IMG/VR virus record: IMGVR_UViG_3300049491_000792
Location: 1-48,873 of that record
Direction: 5' to 3' (one strand)
DNA from: a virus
Length of the DNA stretch: 48,873 nt
A program made the position numbers and the translations under genes. Of this stretch, positions 6,897-15,613 are shown one piece after another. The notes below the pieces were generated by a model. It saw only the letters and a program-made list of their open reading frames with translations, was not told the DNA's origin and made no database searches. The number at the start of each line of letters is the position of its first letter. Position 1 is the stretch's first letter.

Positions 6897-7307
6897 TCAG
6901 TAACCCGGGTAGTTGCGCTCGGCCTGCGCATCGTTGTGGTTGCTCCAATACTCGGCCTTCGCCTTGGTGTAGCTCCACTCGTTGCGCCCGTCTTCAGGCC
7001 CAGCTACCGTGTACGGCCCGAACTCGCTTTGCACATTCCTTGCCCGTAGCGCGGTCAAAATGCAAGCCGGGCAATCGTTCGCAGCTTCACACATCGCCTT
7101 GAACCCATCCGCATCCAGCAGGCGCAGCAGTTCATCGCGCGGCGGAGACGGCACTGGCCCGCCATCGTCGTGCAGCTTGGCGCACATGCCGCACACGCGC
7201 TGCGGGTTCAGCGTGCAGCCGCGCTCGTGGCGCTTCATTGCGCTCGGGCTTCCGTTACCCTTGTTGCAGTGGTCGCAGTAGTAGCGCGGCCTCATTGCGG
7301 TTCTCAT
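6897..7307 (-). CDS. Cysteine-rich zinc-finger-like cassette protein
   Basis: A 136-residue protein from ATG 7307 behind AAGAGGATAACC. The N-terminal pattern YYCDHCNKGNGSPSAMKRHE, followed by CTLNPQRVCGMC, gives a CxxC-x12-H-x4-C zinc-finger-like arrangement plus a second pair of cysteines. The C-terminal half is YTVAGPEDGRNEWSYTKAK-like. Probably a metal-binding protein; target unknown. It is the last gene of the cassette array, about 30 bases after the recombination box of the site at 7336-7461. Confidence 0.65.
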   Translation of the reverse strand: MRTAMRPRYYCDHCNKGNGSPSAMKRHERGCTLNPQRVCGMCAKLHDDGGPVPSPPRDELLRLLDADGFKAMCEAANDCPACILTALRARNVQSEFGPYTVAGPEDGRNEWSYTKAKAEYWSNHNDAQAERNYPGY

Positions 7308-7309
7308 GG

Positions 7310-7654
7310 TTATCCTCTTCGTTCACCAAGCTGATGCATAACCCTTCGGTCGAACGGACCCGCTCCGGCAAGGCCCTTGGGCCGCGACGTACACGGGTTC
7401 TCGGTCAGCCTCGCGGCCCAAGCGCCTCGCCTCCACGGTCCGCTCACCTCAAACGTTAGGCGGCCGAAGCGTGCCGGGCCGCCGCCGGACAGCGGACCGG
7501 CGCTGCGCTTCGTCATCATCCCAGCCGCCACCAGCGCCTCGCAGTCGTCGTAATCGTCACTGCCTGGGCCGGTGACGAAGTAGTTTCGCCAGCCTGGGGC
7601 GCCACGGCCAGCGCCCAGCGCGTGCTTCATGATGTCGCGTTGCCTTGGGGTCAT
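7310..7654 (-). CDS. Cassette protein whose frame runs through attC
   Basis: ATG 7654 has GAGGACACG in front; an ATG at 7669 overlapping the upstream stop as ATGA is an alternative. The first part (MTPRQRDIMKHALGAGRGAP...DDYDDCEALVAAGMM) reads like a small phage protein. After FGRLTFEV the frame enters the attC and codes through the whole site, so the last 45 or so residues are attC-derived. The functional part may be only about 65 residues. Confidence 0.55.
   Translation of the reverse strand: MTPRQRDIMKHALGAGRGAPGWRNYFVTGPGSDDYDDCEALVAAGMMTKRSAGPLSGGGPARFGRLTFEVSGPWRRGAWAARLTENPCTSRPKGLAGAGPFDRRVMHQLGERRG
7336..7461 (-). repeat. attC site, 126 bp
   Basis: Boxes GCATAAC at 7336-7342 and GTTAGGC at 7455-7461. 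Inner arms CGAACGGACC and GGTCCGCTCACCTC pair. The central part is long and is translated by the upstream gene. Confidence 0.8.
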
Positions 7655-7665
7655 CGTGTCCTCGC

Positions 7666-7899
7666 TCATCGGTTGTATGGGCACTCAAAATCGCACTCTT
7701 CGCTGCCGGCCTTGGTGCACGAACCGGACAGAACGCCATTGCGCCAGCGCCCGCACTCTTCGCCAACGTGGCACTCGCACAAGTCGTGAATCTGGCCGCA
7801 TTCCCAGCAGTGGGCGTCGTCCTGGCCGTCGTCTTCGTCGCGCTCTTGAGGCTCGCCACAGTAGTCTTCGTTATCTCGGTCGCTCCACATGGCATGCAT
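7666..7899 (-). CDS. Cysteine-rich acidic cassette protein
   Basis: A 77-residue protein (ATG 7899; a second ATG lies three codons on) with ten cysteines arranged as pairs, including CWECGQIHDLCECHVGEEC. The pattern suggests a small zinc-binding protein. It is strongly acidic in the first third. Its stop overlaps a start of the next gene as ATGA. The start lies 26 bases from the attC recombination box. Confidence 0.6.
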   Translation of the reverse strand: MHAMWSDRDNEDYCGEPQERDEDDGQDDAHCWECGQIHDLCECHVGEECGRWRNGVLSGSCTKAGSEECDFECPYNR

Positions 7900-7924: not shown

Positions 7925-7984
7925 GCCTAACCCCTCGCTCAAGCCGAGCCCGCACGGCGGGCCGGCTTAGCTCGAACGTTAGGC
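7925..7984 (-). repeat. attC site, 60 bp (textbook form)
   Basis: GCCTAAC at 7925-7931 and GTTAGGC at 7978-7984. Arms CTCGCTCAAGCCG and CGGCTTAGCTCGAACG are complementary with an offset, as expected for attC extrahelical bases. The GCC-TAA also supplies the stop codon of the upstream gene at 7979. Confidence 0.9.
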
Positions 7985-8488: not shown

Positions 8489-8575
8489 GCCTAACCCTTC
8501 GCCCGAGCGGACCCCGGGCGGCATAGCGCATTAGCACAAGCCTTGTGCGGGGTCCGCTCAGCTCAACCGTTAGGC
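8489..8575 (-). repeat. attC site, 87 bp
   Basis: GCCTAAC at 8489-8495 and GTTAGGC at 8569-8575. GCGGACCCC pairs with GGGGTCCGC; the central GCACAAGCCTTGTGC forms its own perfect stem. Confidence 0.88.
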
Positions 8576-8577
8576 CT

Positions 8578-8952
8578 TCAATCCAGCGCCTGAATCTGTG
8601 CGGCCGTCAGTTCGCCGCGCAGCGTCATGGCTGCAATCGAGCCGTCTTCCACAGTTGCCGTGCCCGCTTCATCGCACCACCAGTTCTGCGGCTCGCCGCT
8701 CACGGTGTCCCATGCGTCAGGGCTGGCCTTGTCGAAGTGCAGGCCATCGGCGTACCACTGCAAGGCGGCGCGCAGGCTCTCAATTTCGGCATGCAGCCGA
8801 TGTGCCTCGGTCAGAATCTGCCCGTGCAGAAACGTGGCCTTGCCGTGCTTCGCGTCAGTCTCGGCGGCGGTCTGCTCAAACAGGCCGGCGCCCAGGTCGT
8901 CGCAGGCTTCGGTGTAGCGGCCAATTAGGCGCATCAGGTCATCAGCGGTCAC
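8578..8952 (-). CDS. Hypothetical phage-type cassette protein
   Basis: A 124-residue protein with a GTG start at 8952 overlapping the preceding stop (GTGA). It begins TADDLMRLIGRYTEACDDLG, has a helical AEIESLRAALQWYADG segment, and ends TAAQIQALD just before the attC. Proteins of this style are common in phage accessory regions. Function unknown. Confidence 0.6.
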   Translation of the reverse strand: MTADDLMRLIGRYTEACDDLGAGLFEQTAAETDAKHGKATFLHGQILTEAHRLHAEIESLRAALQWYADGLHFDKASPDAWDTVSGEPQNWWCDEAGTATVEDGSIAAMTLRGELTAAQIQALD

Positions 8953-9130: not shown

Positions 9131-9184
9131 GCCTAACTCTGCGCTGCACCGGACCCTGCGGGCCGGTGAGCTTGGGCGTTCGGC
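9131..9184 (-). repeat. attC site, 54 bp
   Basis: GCCTAAC at 9131-9137 and GTTCGGC at 9178-9184, with arms CACCGGACCC and GGGCCGGTGAG. Compact form. The DUF1643 gene stop lies one base outside the box. Confidence 0.85.
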
Positions 9185-9185
9185 G

Positions 9186-9743
9186 TCACCAATTCACCCA
9201 CGCCACCGGCCGCAGGCTAGCGGGCAGGTACAGCGGGTGACCGGGGTGGCCGTCCTTCGTCAGCCGCAGGTAGTGAAGCCCCGGCACCAGTAGGCGCACC
9301 GACTGGTCGCGCCCCTTGTACGTGCCGTGCGCGCCCCACGCGGCCACCACCACACCGGCGCCGCGCGCCAGCGTGGTCAGCGTGTGGTCGTTCTCCCAGC
9401 CCACCGGCTCGGTCGCCTTCTTCATGTCGGCGGGTTCGGTTGCGCGGTAGGCAAAGAGGTTCGCCATGCACAGCGCGCCATAGCCCCACGAGCGCGCGAA
9501 TGCGATGCACCGCCGGATGGTCGGGTCGTCGTTCGTCTCGTCAGCGGTGCTCGGGTTCAGGCCAATGAACATGGCGTAGTCGCCACGCCCCCACCTGCGC
9601 CACAGGGCATAGCGGTACGTGCGGCAGGCGCTCAGCGTCGCGGCGCGCTCCATCGCTCCGGCACCAGTGCCGCCGAACTGGTCGGTCGAGGCGACATGCC
9701 CCGGCGTGGCGTTGGTGTCCTGCTCAGTCTTGTTCGGGGGCAT
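9186..9743 (-). CDS. DUF1643 family protein
   Basis: A 185-residue protein with clear family landmarks: YRYALWRRWGRGDYAMFIGL, NPSTADETNDDPTIRRCI, FARSWGYGALCMANLFAYRA, and near the end VVAAWGAHG and LTKDGHPGHPLYL. DUF1643 proteins occur in bacteria and phages and have no established function. ATG 9743 is preceded by GGAG contributed by a half attC that abuts the gene, so this cassette boundary looks rearranged. It ends directly at the attC at 9131-9184. Confidence 0.8.
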   Translation of the reverse strand: MPPNKTEQDTNATPGHVASTDQFGGTGAGAMERAATLSACRTYRYALWRRWGRGDYAMFIGLNPSTADETNDDPTIRRCIAFARSWGYGALCMANLFAYRATEPADMKKATEPVGWENDHTLTTLARGAGVVVAAWGAHGTYKGRDQSVRLLVPGLHYLRLTKDGHPGHPLYLPASLRPVAWVNW

Positions 9744-9766
9744 GCTGCTCAACTCCAACGTTAGCG
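9744..9766 (-). repeat. Half attC (5' half) abutting the DUF1643 start
   Basis: Read on the minus strand: CGCTAACGTTGGAGTTGAGC, equivalent to the outer box plus arm of an attC, followed at once by the ATG of the DUF1643 gene. The second arm and the GTTRRRY box are absent. Confidence 0.55.
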
Positions 9767-10065: not shown

Positions 10066-10536
10066 TTACGCAGTCTTGCCTCGGCCTTCCGGCTTCGGCG
10101 GTTGCACATAGTCCTGCATCACGGTGTCGTCCACGGTCACGGCGCAGGTCCAGTTGGCCTGCTGAATGGCCGCGTCCACCAGGCGAAGCTGCCGGGCGTG
10201 CCAGTCGTACTCGGCCGTCACCTGCGAAGCGGTCAGCAGCGGCACTTGCAGCACGATGTCGTCCCAGCCGTCGTTCACGGCTTTGCGCCCGTGCTTCATC
10301 TCGAACAGGTCTTTGTCCAAAATCGCCTTCAGCTTGTCCACCTTGCCCTGCAGTTCCTTGCGGCGCAGCAGCGCTTCAGCCAGTTTCACTTCCATCTTCT
10401 TTCTCCAGTCGGTAGGTGCCTGCCTGTTCGCAGCGGCAGGCTTGCTGCTGTCGTTATTGATGTAGTCCACGCAGGCTTTCTTGGCCAGCTCTTCGGCTTC
10501 GGCCGGCGTCGCGGCAGGCTTCAGGTCAGTCGTCAT
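10066..10536 (-). CDS. Hypothetical phage-type cassette protein, helical
   Basis: A 156-residue protein starting MTTDLKPAATPAEAEELAKK at ATG 10536, which overlaps the end of the preceding gene by 11 bases. It contains a long charged helix (WRKKMEVKLAEALLRRKELQ ... KLKAILDKDLFEM) and a C-terminal region ending VQPPKPEGRGKTA. The style suggests a coiled-coil phage protein. Function unknown. Confidence 0.6.
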   Translation of the reverse strand: MTTDLKPAATPAEAEELAKKACVDYINNDSSKPAAANRQAPTDWRKKMEVKLAEALLRRKELQGKVDKLKAILDKDLFEMKHGRKAVNDGWDDIVLQVPLLTASQVTAEYDWHARQLRLVDAAIQQANWTCAVTVDDTVMQDYVQPPKPEGRGKTA

Positions 10537-10783
10537 CTTCGTCGCTCCATTCGTGGCATAGGCACTGGCACCGCTCGGCACTCAGGTACCTGTCGTCAGG
10601 CTGCGGCCCCAGCGTCGGCTCGTCGGGGTAGCGGCGCACCATGCACTCGCGCGCATCGCGGCTCAGGCACGCACAGCCGTAGGTGCCGCGCGGTCCTTCG
10701 GCGTCCGTGCCTTCGTCAACCGGCCGCCCAACTGACGGTTCGAGCGGACCCGCAACAGCGGGCCGCAGTGTGGTGTTACTCAT
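10526..10783 (-). CDS. Cassette protein starting inside an attC
   Basis: An 85-residue frame. ATG 10783 has the near-ideal ribosome site CGAGGAAAACC, and both lie in the central loop of the attC at 10726-10827. The first 20 residues (MSNTTLRPAVAGPLEPSVGR) are attC-encoded. The cassette-specific part is cysteine-rich (YGCACLSRDARECM ... ERCQCLCHEWSDEDDD), suggesting a small metal-binding protein. The reading frame crosses the recombination point, so the start is supplied by the preceding cassette. Confidence 0.55.
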   Translation of the reverse strand: MSNTTLRPAVAGPLEPSVGRPVDEGTDAEGPRGTYGCACLSRDARECMVRRYPDEPTLGPQPDDRYLSAERCQCLCHEWSDEDDD

Positions 10784-10827
10784 GGTTTTCCTCGCGCTGT
10801 TGCGGTCCGCTCAACCTAGCGTTGGGC
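10726..10827 (-). repeat. attC site, 102 bp, with embedded start codon
   Basis: GCCCAAC at 10726-10732 and GTTGGGC at 10821-10827; arms CGAGCGGACCCGCAACAGCG and CGCTGTTGCGGTCCGCTC pair extensively. The loop holds a ribosome site and ATG reading out through the 3' arm. Confidence 0.88.
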
Positions 10828-11232
10828 GTCACAACTCCGCACGCGGTCAATGTCTACCTCGTGCGCGGACACCAGCCCCTCAGAAACCATGCGCTCCACA
10901 ACGCGCCGGTCGAAGCGCCGCCCGTAGCATGTGTCGTTCATGCCGCTGCGCCTGTAGAGCCGGTGGTCACCGTGAATGCTGGTGTACTCGTAGCCCATGC
11001 TGCATAGGAGCATGAACTCTCTTATTCTCGCTTGGTACTCATCTTCGGTCAGCGGGTTTTCTCCGAATCTGCCGCCGTTGCTACCGAACACCGCAACGAC
11101 GGGCTTGCCGCCAATCTCTCGGTGTTCAATGGCAATGCCGCCGCCCGCTGGGGTCGCCACATTCACGGGCCAGTCTTCCGGGAACTCGCTAAGGGCTTTG
11201 ATGTAGTCGCCAACGGTTTTAAGTTCTCGCAT
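10816..11232 (-). CDS. Hypothetical cassette protein
   Basis: A 138-residue protein from ATG 11232, behind GAAGGAGATATGGC. It starts MRELKTVGDYIKALSEFPED; the centre VNVATPAGGGIAIEHREI and PVVAVFG suggest a small alpha/beta fold. It ends RRVVERMVSEGLVSAHEVDI..., with the stop TAG inside the following attC. The opening LKTVGDYIKALSEFPEDWPV resembles small phage proteins. No assigned function. Confidence 0.65.
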   Translation of the reverse strand: MRELKTVGDYIKALSEFPEDWPVNVATPAGGGIAIEHREIGGKPVVAVFGSNGGRFGENPLTEDEYQARIREFMLLCSMGYEYTSIHGDHRLYRRSGMNDTCYGRRFDRRVVERMVSEGLVSAHEVDIDRVRSCDAQR

Positions 11233-11257
11233 GCCATATCTCCTTCGTTGCTGTGAC

Positions 11258-11315
11258 GCCTAACTTTAGGTCGAGCGGACTCGCCTACGGCTCGCCGCTC
11301 ACCACGACGTTAGGT
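11258..11315 (-). repeat. attC site, 58 bp
   Basis: GCCTAAC at 11258-11264 and GTTAGGT at 11309-11315; arms GTCGAGCGGACTCGCC and GGCTCGCCGCTCACCACGAC. The ACC-TAA on the minus strand gives the stop of the gene at 11310. Confidence 0.85.
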
Positions 11316-11741
11316 CACAGAAGCGGCCTCAATGGCAGCATCCACCAGCTCATCAAATGAGCCCTTGCCGGCAATGTTCGCCGTGTACAGGGCCTTAAAC
11401 TGCGGCACGCTTAGCGTGCGAACGTACTCGTATCGCGCCGCGCCGGCCGCAGAATCATCAGCATGGCGCTGCGCTCGCCGCCATGCCTCTTCGTTGACCC
11501 TGGCCGCTGTCTTCAGGTTCTTGATGTGCGCATCAATCATCGAGCCAACGAAGTCGGGCCGGTCGGGAAAGCGGGCGCGGTCTTCGGCCATCGCTTCAAG
11601 CATGTCGGCCGCACGGCCAGCCCATGCGCTCAGGTCGGCGCCATCGGCGTCGTATGCGGCGTGAATCATGCGCAGGCAGCACAGCATGTGGCCTAACCCT
11701 TCGCTCAAAGGGACATTGCCCGGCACAGTTTCGTTGTCCAT
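11310..11741 (-). CDS. Cassette protein starting inside an attC
   Basis: A 143-residue frame. ATG 11741 has GGAGGAACA in front, and both lie in the loop of the attC at 11691-11784. The first 16 residues (MDNETVPGNVPLSEGL) are attC-encoded. An internal ATG just past the recombination box (MLCCLRMIHAAYDADG...) could be the native cassette start but has no clear ribosome site. The protein is helical; no known domain. Its UAA stop lies in the next attC. Confidence 0.6.
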   Translation of the reverse strand: MDNETVPGNVPLSEGLGHMLCCLRMIHAAYDADGADLSAWAGRAADMLEAMAEDRARFPDRPDFVGSMIDAHIKNLKTAARVNEEAWRRAQRHADDSAAGAARYEYVRTLSVPQFKALYTANIAGKGSFDELVDAAIEAASVT

Positions 11742-11784
11742 TGTTCCTCCATGTGGGCAATGCCCCTCAGCTCAAACGTTATGC
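11691..11784 (-). repeat. attC site, 94 bp, with embedded start codon
   Basis: GCCTAAC at 11691-11697 and GTTATGC at 11778-11784; arms GCTCAAAGGGACATTGCCC and GGGCAATGCCCCTCAGCTC. The loop carries GGAGGAACAATG. The outer GCATAAC box gives the stop of the upstream pseudogene. Confidence 0.88.
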
Positions 11785-12336: not shown

Positions 12337-12423
12337 TGCTGCCGCTTCTCGCTGCAGTGTGCGTGCCAGCAGTGCGGCCCATATCGCACCGCCTGCTACC
12401 TTCGCCACAAATTGCAGCGCCAC
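12331..12423 (-). CDS. Small hydrophobic cassette peptide (30 aa)
   Basis: GTG start at 12423 behind AAGGAGGCATC, inside the 3' end of the gene at 12396. It reads VALQFVAKVAGGAIWAALLA and ends at the TAA of the half attC. The composition suggests one membrane helix. Short, but start signal, overlap and stop placement all fit. Confidence 0.5.
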   Translation of the reverse strand: MALQFVAKVAGGAIWAALLARTLQREAAAG

Positions 12424-12722
12424 GATGCCTCCTTCTCTCGCTTCTTGGCTGCTTCTCGACGCCACTTGTCTTCCTTGCGCATTGCATCCAAGTCAAGCGC
12501 AAGCGCTCCATCGGCTGGGACAATCCACACCTCGGCCAGCGCGTTGTCACCATCGATTGCCAGTCCTTCGTCCTCGCCGTCTGGATATGCAATCTGTTTT
12601 GCAAAGTGCGTTCTGGCCTCGTGCGGCGGTCCGTCGAAGTCATCGAAGTAGAAAAGCATGCCGCACCCGATGGTGTAATCGCATCCTTCGCCCTCCTGCC
12701 GCTGTGCAATCAGGTATCGCAT
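12396..12722 (-). CDS. Hypothetical cassette protein
   Basis: A 108-residue protein from ATG 12722, behind GCAGGAGATACGA: MRYLIAQRQEGEGCDYTIGC. It contains GMLFYFDDFDGPPHEART-like and ALAEVWIVPADGALALDLDA segments, then a basic helical tail. Acidic overall and probably soluble. No family name. Its first codon is about 20 bases from the attC box at 12743. Confidence 0.65.
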   Translation of the reverse strand: MRYLIAQRQEGEGCDYTIGCGMLFYFDDFDGPPHEARTHFAKQIAYPDGEDEGLAIDGDNALAEVWIVPADGALALDLDAMRKEDKWRREAAKKREKEASWRCNLWRR

Positions 12723-12742: not shown

Positions 12743-12842
12743 GCCTAACCCCTCGCTCGAAAGGACCGCAAACGGCGGTCGCGTTTTCTCGATTGCCTAG
12801 TCCTGCTGCGCCGTTTGCGGCCTCTCAGCTAGAACGTTAAGC
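12743..12842 (-). repeat. attC site, 100 bp
   Basis: GCCTAAC at 12743-12749 and GTTAAGC at 12836-12842. The inner stem CCGCAAACGG / CCGTTTGCGG is perfect. The upstream gene ends inside this site at 12797. Confidence 0.85.
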
Positions 12843-13103: not shown

Positions 13104-13131
13104 GCTTAACTGGTTGCTGGAGCGGACCGCG
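13104..13131 (-). repeat. Half attC (3' half) at the end of a gene
   Basis: GCTTAAC box at 13104-13110 with the arm CTGGAGCGGACCGC following on the plus strand; the partner arm and outer box are absent. On the minus strand this gives the stop of the gene at 13106 and the recombination-type box GTTAAGC. Confidence 0.6.
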
Positions 13132-13309
13132 TGTAGCAGTAAGCGCCCCACGGTCGCGGAGTCTTGTCGCTGCTCCACTCCACCACGATGGGGATGTGCT
13201 GCGCGGCCAGCGTGCAGAGCTTTTGCAGTTCGGCCGTCTGGCCCTCGGTGCGCAGCAGCTTATCGCGGTGCAGCGCGTCGTACTCTTGTTGCGTCAGCAG
13301 GTACTGCAT
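13106..13309 (-). CDS. Small cassette protein (67 aa)
   Basis: ATG 13309 behind AAAGGACATAAGGC: MQYLLTQQEYDALHRDKLLR. A helical N-terminal segment, then LQKLCTLAAQHIPIVVEW and a C-terminus PRPWGAYCYTRSAP whose end is coded by the half attC. Similar QQEYDAL starts occur in small phage proteins of unknown function. It follows the DHH gene at 25 bases without an attC between, so the two form one cassette. Confidence 0.65.
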   Translation of the reverse strand: MQYLLTQQEYDALHRDKLLRTEGQTAELQKLCTLAAQHIPIVVEWSSDKTPRPWGAYCYTRSAPATS

Positions 13310-14202: not shown

Positions 14203-14258
14203 GCCGAACCAGTCATTCGAGCGGACTGCTTCGCAGCCGCTCAATTCTAACGTTCGGC
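14203..14258 (-). repeat. attC site, 56 bp
   Basis: GCCGAAC at 14203-14209 and GTTCGGC at 14252-14258, with arms CGAGCGGACTGC and GCAGCCGCTCAA. Confidence 0.85.
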
Positions 14259-14743: not shown

Positions 14744-14776
14744 GCCTAACCATTCACTGGAGCAGACTCGCGGGGC
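14744..14776 (-). repeat. Half attC (3' half) fused to the rusA end
   Basis: GCCTAAC at 14744-14750 with the arm CACTGGAGCAGACTCGC on the plus strand. It codes the last RusA residues and its TAG stop; the other arm is missing. It marks the upstream end of the array. Confidence 0.65.
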
Positions 14777-15255
14777 AGGGTCTCATTCCACTCCATCGAG
14801 ATCTGTTGCTCGGCAAGCGGCTCAACGACGATCTCGGCCCGCGGATTCACCGTATCGAGTGCCCTGCGGATGTCCTTCCATTCGACCTGGCGGTCGTTCA
14901 CGTACACGCCGCGCCGCACGAGTTCGGTCCGTAGCACTTTTCCCGTTTGCGGGTCCTTGATCCGCAGGTACTTCGCCTGCATGACGTCGAGGATGATTGA
15001 CTCGTCGAGGTCCGGCCGGCGGCTCGCGTAATAGATCCGCATGGTGACCTTCACCGGCCCCTGCAGCATCTGTCTGGCCCACGACGGGATCTGCTTTTCA
15101 GCGTCTTCCTCGTAGTTGCGCGCCTTCTCCGACTTGATCGAAGCTGCGCGCATTGCGCCCGTCTTGTAGCCGTGCTTGACCAGCGGGATCGCGACGAGTT
15201 GCCTAGAGTTGGCCTTGCTGGCTGGCTCACCAAGAATCCGGAAGCAGATGGGCAT
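14746..15255 (-). CDS. rusA: RusA-like Holliday junction resolvase
   Basis: A 169-residue protein. ATG 15255 overlaps the previous stop as TGATG; a GTG two codons upstream is possible. After an N-terminal ICFRILGEPASKANSRQLV, the family acidic residues appear in RPDLDESIILDVMQ and GVYVNDRQVEW, matching RusA, which dimerises and resolves four-way DNA junctions. RusA is a common nin-region gene of lambdoid phages. Its length is somewhat above the usual 120-140 because of an insert before the second motif and a C-terminal tail whose last 10 or so residues come from a half attC. Confidence 0.85.
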   Translation of the reverse strand: MPICFRILGEPASKANSRQLVAIPLVKHGYKTGAMRAASIKSEKARNYEEDAEKQIPSWARQMLQGPVKVTMRIYYASRRPDLDESIILDVMQAKYLRIKDPQTGKVLRTELVRRGVYVNDRQVEWKDIRRALDTVNPRAEIVVEPLAEQQISMEWNETLPRESAPVNG

Positions 15256-15395
15256 CACCACAGGCACAACCTCCGGCCAACAACGGCCACTGCGGCCACC
15301 AGAATCGACAATGCCGGGCCGGCACAGATCAGTGCGAGCACCGTCCTCATGCTCACGCGCTCCTGGCCCTTCTGCGGCTTGTAGCCCGCGCTCAT
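15255..15395 (-). CDS. Small membrane protein (46 aa)
   Basis: ATG 15395 overlaps the upstream stop (ATGA) and its own stop overlaps the RusA start (TGATG). A charged N-terminus (MSAGYKPQKGQERVS) precedes one hydrophobic helix (TVLALICAGPALSILVAAVA). Below common length cut-offs, but held in place by coupling on both sides. Confidence 0.6.
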   Translation of the reverse strand: MSAGYKPQKGQERVSMRTVLALICAGPALSILVAAVAVVGRRLCLW

Positions 15396-15613
15396 TGCGC
15401 CGTCCCGGGGACCGACCTCGCTGCCATCTTGATCGCCGCGTGAGTTCGTACCCATGCATCAATGCCGTTGATCACCTCGAGTAGCCCATCCATGTAGGCG
15501 ATTTCGTGCGAACCAATCAGGAGTTCGCGGAGCTTCTCTGCCTCGCTGCCACCGGCTCTGATGTGCAACATCACGGCCAGGTCGATCAGCTCGCGGGTGT
15601 GCTCGGTGATCAT
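15392..15613 (-). CDS. Small hypothetical protein (73 aa)
   Basis: ATG 15613 (MITEHTRELIDLAVMLHIRA) overlaps the upstream stop as ATGA. Helical and acidic; residues GGSEAEKLRELLIGSHEIAY suggest a small helical bundle. No family known. Part of the chain of tiny coupled genes between the P-like gene and rusA. Confidence 0.6.
   Translation of the reverse strand: MITEHTRELIDLAVMLHIRAGGSEAEKLRELLIGSHEIAYMDGLLEVINGIDAWVRTHAAIKMAARSVPGTAQ

Follow-up and report, generated by a model that had tools for sequence, protein, structure and literature searches.

The window is a linear metagenomic virus record from IMG/VR, analyzed over its whole length of 48.9 kb; the related contigs to which we compared it are also metagenomic. 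It carries tape-measure, tail, lysozyme and replication genes. An array of attC-like hairpins, with its genes on the minus strand, extends from about 7.3 to about 14.3 kb. The hairpins have the paired RYYYAAC and GTTRRRY boxes and the inner L''/L' stem of attC sites, together with the extrahelical base in L'' that defines the bottom strand (among the sites compared, the L'' arm is the longer in 107 and the L' arm in 15, with 134 equal). Ten attC in the window score above 30. There is no intI in it (no match to TIGR02249), so that it corresponds to a CALIN (at least two attC, no intI) and not to a complete integron, in which intI and attI adjoin the array. Three of the hairpins carry a Shine-Dalgarno (SD) sequence and a start codon within the loop, and their features are as follows.

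10726 to 10827, plus strand as top strand: attC of 102 nt, R'' GCCCAAC at 10726-10732, R' G↓TTGGGC at 10821-10827, score 88
10790 to 10793, minus strand: SD GAGG in the gene-sense loop, 6 nt ahead of the ATG
10526 to 10783, minus strand: ORF of 85 aa, Cys-rich small protein, loop start
10066 to 10536, minus strand: second gene in this cassette (MTTDLKP...); it overlaps the end of ORF 10526-10783
11691 to 11784, plus strand: attC of 94 nt, R'' GCCTAAC at 11691-11697, R' G↓TTATGC at 11778-11784
11746 to 11750, minus strand: SD GGAGG in the gene-sense loop, 4 nt ahead of the ATG
11310 to 11741, minus strand: ORF of 143 aa, loop start, leader ..VPLSEGLG
9672 to 9766, plus strand: attC-like site of 95 nt with the third loop start, score 51
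9186 to 9743, minus strand: DUF1643 gene from the loop ATG, SD GGAG at 9753-9756, body joining at GTTCGGC

The first two sites had been singled out in a preliminary description of this DNA, which placed ribosome-binding sites and ATG codons inside their loops. Positions and motifs agree with that claim, on the gene-sense (minus-strand) loop: the minus strand reads GCGAGGAAAACC-ATG in the attC at 10726-10827, with the ATG at 10783, and GGAGGAACA-ATG in the attC at 11691-11784, with the ATG at 11741. The third loop start, ATG 9743, had not been listed there. Both named frames stay open through the stem arm and the 7-nt GTTRRRY box. ORF 10526-10783 begins with a leader of 17 codons, MSNTTLRPAVAGPLEPS, followed by the GTT of the box, and no alternative usable start was found in this frame before the conserved Cys motif and Cys-rich body; the sole alternative codon is GTT, CTG, TTG or GTG in the relatives. 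ORF 11310-11741 reads its box in the other phase and terminates with the TAA that the next box provides; it has an alternative start, ATG 11687, 4 nt past the box and preceded by a weak SD (AAGG), and no relatives of it were found among the viral contigs searched.

The remaining window cassettes start about 20 nt or more past the box.

7336 to 7461, plus strand: attC; gene 6897-7307 (minus strand) starts past the box
7925 to 7984, plus strand: short attC; gene 7666-7899 (minus strand) starts past the box
8489 to 8575, plus strand: attC; the gene's ATG lies about 100 nt downstream, past the box, with SD AGGTG
9131 to 9184, plus strand: short attC; the gene (minus strand, stop at 8949) starts at a GTG past the box
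11258 to 11315, plus strand: short, weak attC, score 31; gene 10816-11232 (minus strand) starts past the box
12743 to 12842, plus strand: attC; gene 12396-12722 (minus strand) starts past the box
14203 to 14258, plus strand: short attC; DHH phosphoesterase-like gene with its ATG past the box

The site at 8489-8575 also has a loop ATG (8524), which lacks an SD and is probably not used. Elsewhere in the array, gene 7310-7684 (minus strand) reads on across the attC at 7336-7461 as far as a stop at 7310, which makes it a C-terminal fusion spanning that site. Half attC remnants consisting of the R''/L'' arm only were found at 13104 and 14744, read through by the neighboring genes 13106-13309 and 14746-15462 (RusA-like), as if arrays eroded from the R' side.

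The orientation of these hairpins against their genes was evaluated with a position weight matrix (PWM) built only from attC sites of class 1 integrons. At every window site tested the plus strand was the top strand, by margins of 5 to 45 bits; the attC at 10726-10827 scored 10.0 bits with the plus strand as top and -12.3 bits with the minus strand, and that at 11691-11784 scored 31.8 and -3.5 bits, respectively. The genes, on the minus strand, are therefore antisense to the attC, and the canonical crossover point at R' comes to lie upstream of the gene, so that hairpin and gene make up one cassette. Whereas a canonical gene cassette has its attC 3' of a gene in the same sense, the genes here are antisense and the attC lies 5' of them. 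By this geometry the cassettes are inverted, each attC being the 5' leader of its own gene.

In the first set of related records, a hexamer coding-strand test likewise placed the genes antisense to the attC at almost every site. A further 56 viral stretches, retrieved with an arm pattern in which the loop plays no part and used as a held-out set, yielded 210 attC sites against 0 in reversed controls (threshold of 40); 181 of them were inverted, 24 canonical and 5 undecided (181/205 decided). These tallies are not fully independent, since part of the training of the attC scan model had used these sites. The independent lines are the class 1 matrix, the coding-strand test and the geometry of the integrase. 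Burkholderiales chromosomal sites with the same pattern were canonical over inverted by 9 to 1. Mostly canonical cassettes were seen in five viral loci of the held-out set, and attC clusters in both orientations in G003, G011 and G012.

Integron integrases above the curated TIGR02249 cutoff of 265 bits were found in three related phage contigs: G003 (474 bits), G002 (450 bits) and G014 (269 bits, cut at the contig end). That of G003 aligned to the IntI structure 2a3v with 297 bits over 310 residues, and G003 and G014 carry terminase, portal or connector, and head or tail genes. In all three phages the attC that adjoin intI have their tops directed away from the integrase gene, the usual arrangement in integrons, and the genes run toward intI. 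The inverted arrays that intI adjoins are L003/L033 (G002), L029/L036 (G003) and L032/L038 (G014). In contigs L063 to L069, found via the phage IntI, the model detected no attC and the structural search at most two weak ones.

These results bear on the preliminary description's account of expression, by which the attC is oriented with the genes, is part of the upstream cassette and lends its start to the next insert. This account agrees with the frame crossing the GTTRRRY box and with the presence of the same hairpin before different bodies, yet the top strand is antisense by the class 1 matrix and by the intI geometry in 3/3 phages, and identical hairpins were linked to the same downstream gene in 11/41 pairs versus the same upstream gene in 1/16 (not significant alone). 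Taken literally, we consider it improbable. The frame does cross the GTTRRRY box, as had been said, although the canonical crossover, at R', is at the other, upstream end; and the hairpin belongs to the gene's own cassette instead of a neighbor's. A modified form of the proposal survives, since the box that the frame crosses (R'') itself appears to be an exchange point in related phages, and a start-less body might be served by any hairpin. That some bodies have no start of their own was borne out for the cassettes with loop starts.

Loop starts are frequent in other phage arrays, where the preliminary description had suggested looking for them. Relatives of ORF 10526-10783 are encoded in ten viral contigs, and in nine of them the gene follows a hairpin with the start in the loop, mostly with an AGGAG-type SD; one of the nine (L011) has hairpin and leader on a different body, and the tenth (L010) has a direct start and no hairpin. 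Patterns derived from the hairpin brought up further phages, where different bodies follow this one hairpin. One pattern scan returned a single locus only, and the 102-nt hairpin had no match in GenBank phages. In L021, a contig from a Burkholderiales metagenome-assembled genome, a C5 DNA methylase starts at a GTG in an attC loop; L021 has further attC in the inverted arrangement and may belong to a phage that was binned together with its host.

The first survey scored 103 sites. Loop starts were assigned to 38, of which 37 are long sites, and 39 of 40 short sites had the start past the box. The held-out inverted sites reproduced the pattern, with loop starts in 54 long and 3 short sites and after-box starts in 36 long and 80 short ones (Fisher test of start position against length, 8e-10 in the first survey and 6e-17 in the held-out set, values that overstate independence, as the sites are related by descent). 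Pooling this record and about 60 related ones gave 295 distinct attC sites with a bimodal length distribution, short ones of about 52 to 73 nt and long ones of about 85 to 130 nt. An SD of at least 5 nt with an ATG was present in the gene-sense loop of 66/157 long sites and 0/138 short sites, against 0/157 long sites on the opposite strand, a mean of 5 (maximum of 12) in shuffles and 8 in equal-size windows from gene bodies. The loop SD and ATG are not a product of chance. After-box SD and ATG combinations showed the complementary distribution, with 105/138 short sites and 13/66 loop-start sites; genes behind short sites have their own SD and a start mostly 13 to 34 nt past the box, and half of the long sites without a strong loop SD have an after-box SD and ATG. 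Overall, about a third of the cassettes use a loop start. In the predicted RNA, SD and AUG are moderately unpaired (0.63 versus 0.25 for the arms); the GC content of the stem would oppose initiation.

That the loop ATGs are fortuitous and the real starts lie past the box would accommodate the roughly 60% of the set that start there with good SDs, as well as the ATG 4 nt past the box in ORF 11310-11741. The controls described above (none antisense or in short sites, and few in shuffles) and ORF 10526-10783, with no other start ahead of its conserved part, make this most improbable, as does the reading frame. When the loop ATG was picked by its SD alone (n=64), its frame was the best coding frame past the box in 56 cases (p=3.5e-19, a value that again overstates independence; the count per distinct leader, 52/60, is the fairer one). 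The encoded leaders are about 13 to 23 residues long and run through the 3' arm. A single fixed phase at the box was considered and rejected, as it held 30 to 8 in the first set and failed in the held-out one (32 to 25); the phase is 0 or 2, the third, blocked by TAG, being absent or nearly so.

The preliminary description had left translation as either fusion or coupling. Short coupled leaders have a precedent in class 1 integrons, for which ORF-11-type coupling and short attC ORFs are described (PMC8876359), and a loop ORF of that kind would merely feed a downstream start. However, the box contributes no stop, and the loop frame is open for at least 45 codons past it in 55/64 cases, against 5 and 4 in the two shifted frames. 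This is what would be expected of an in-frame fusion, not of a short coupled ORF, and we regard the coupled leader as highly improbable. It is the fusion half of the earlier alternative that stands.

Site pairs fall into three modules, and identical hairpin cores with different flanks on both sides are common. The cores at G014:31708 and G005:26347, for instance, are 100% identical and precede different bodies, while an MT-A70 methylase body with 95% DNA identity between L005 and L019 lies behind unrelated hairpins, the shared segment running from box to box. From the same hairpin before different bodies and one body behind unrelated hairpins it follows that the hairpins would act as swappable translation-start modules. 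Where bodies are shared, the RRRY of the box follows the body and the YYYY follows the upstream gene in 80 to 91% of cases, versus a background of 25 to 33%. This reassortment at the boxes would imply, given the orientation, exchange at both R' and R'', which suggests integrase recombination at both ends of these attC. The upstream box also takes part in coding: where an upstream ORF was detectable, the box, as RYYTAAC, gave the preceding gene its in-frame TAA stop in about 47% of cases.

Homologous recombination between phages might also have reassorted hairpins and bodies without an integrase acting at both boxes, as identical hairpins could be homology tracts and the window has no intI. The breakpoint at the box in the methylase pair, behind unrelated hairpins, and the partition of RRRY and YYYY argue against this, and a crossover shifted to R'' has been described where the extrahelical bases of an attC are altered (PMC2727003). 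We consider it unlikely as a general explanation; it remains a rival for part of the events. A more elaborate proposal is that these phages run an inverted integron whose attC hairpins are free-standing modules with two ends, the integrase crossing over at R' and at R'', so that start-less bodies and hairpins with or without a start reassort independently. It is tentative, and we would give it slightly less than an even chance.

Junctions with known genes fit bodies that were cut near their native start and then served by a loop start. The DUF1643 homolog of the phage record MW202621 begins with MIDDLFGDAPAEAMER and has its own SD; in the window, the hairpin leader stands where the homolog has that start and reads into the same body at GTTCGGC (Q-F-G). 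Similarly, the junction of the C5-methylase body in L021 lies no more than about two codons from the start annotated in a mycobacteriophage.

Taken together, we think it probable that this is an inverted phage attC array in which the hairpin doubles as recombination site and portable translation-start module. Geometry, loop starts, frames and box reassortment are apparent in the DNA sequence itself; translation from the loop we infer. In the mechanism that we propose, each attC would be the 5' leader of a gene in an integron-type array of a phage lineage. Short attC would precede genes with their own SD and start past the box, and in long ones the loop (the variable terminal structure) would often hold both SD and start codon, the encoded leader being fused in frame over the GTTRRRY box to a start-less body. 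An integrase acting at both ends would exchange hairpin cores and bodies at the two boxes, RYYYAA↓C and G↓TTRRRY, with bottom-strand crossover at R' and a rarer top-strand crossover at R''.

How attC become attached to genes and how initiation-less cassettes are translated are open questions in integron biology. The arrays described here document a phage lineage with inverted integron cassettes, in which the attC variable loop appears to be used to carry a start and the attC stem is coding; ordinary gene bodies (methylases, DUF1643) are joined at a box-like GTTRRRY close to their native start, and a swap of hairpin would also swap the gene's mode of translation start. Attachment and translation alike could thereby be put to the test in an established assay on short pieces of DNA. 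If true, the two-ended module would be a working route to cassette genesis, by which attC are put onto new genes with expression built in.

In the literature searched, which did not extend to preprints and most subscription papers, we found no account of inverted phage cassettes or loop starts. The closest setting is that of the phage CALINs and integrons, likewise attC arrays in phage genomes with or without intI, where several phage attC recombined with attI1 with a preference for the bottom strand (Qi et al. 2023, PMC9892861). The parts of that study available to us report measurable, though lower, top-strand recombination of phage attC and do not mention inverted cassettes, attC-loop starts or R'' exchange; there the array genes of TJE1 and PH101 are described in the usual direction, whereas those of the phages here are inverted. 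Bottom-strand crossover at R' is canonical, and altered extrahelical bases shift it to R'' experimentally, while the attC loop does not determine strand choice (PMC2727003). Class 1 cassettes such as aadA1, aadB, catB8 and qac likewise have a near-identical attC core on unrelated genes, with the attC 3' of the gene, unlike here. The reverse integrons of Treponema resemble these arrays in the unusual relative orientation of intI and cassette genes, but there it is intI that is turned, being transcribed toward attI, the gene stop lies in R'' and the attC is 3' of the gene (PMC3607928, PMC7691350). In the related phages intI points away from the array, the intI/attC geometry is canonical, and it is the genes that are turned, with the attC 5'; this geometry rules out Treponema reverse integrons as the parent type. 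For translation, the nearest analogue is, in our comparison, attI1 ORF-11. ORF-11/ORF-17 and the short attC ORFs likewise supply SD and start from a recombination site to initiation-less cassettes (PMC8876359). ORF-11/ORF-17, however, lies in attI, serves the first cassette only and works by termination-reinitiation with a stop in GTTRRRY (PMC8876359), whereas here it is the gene's own cassette that holds the start, in its attC loop, and translation from it would give an in-frame fusion.
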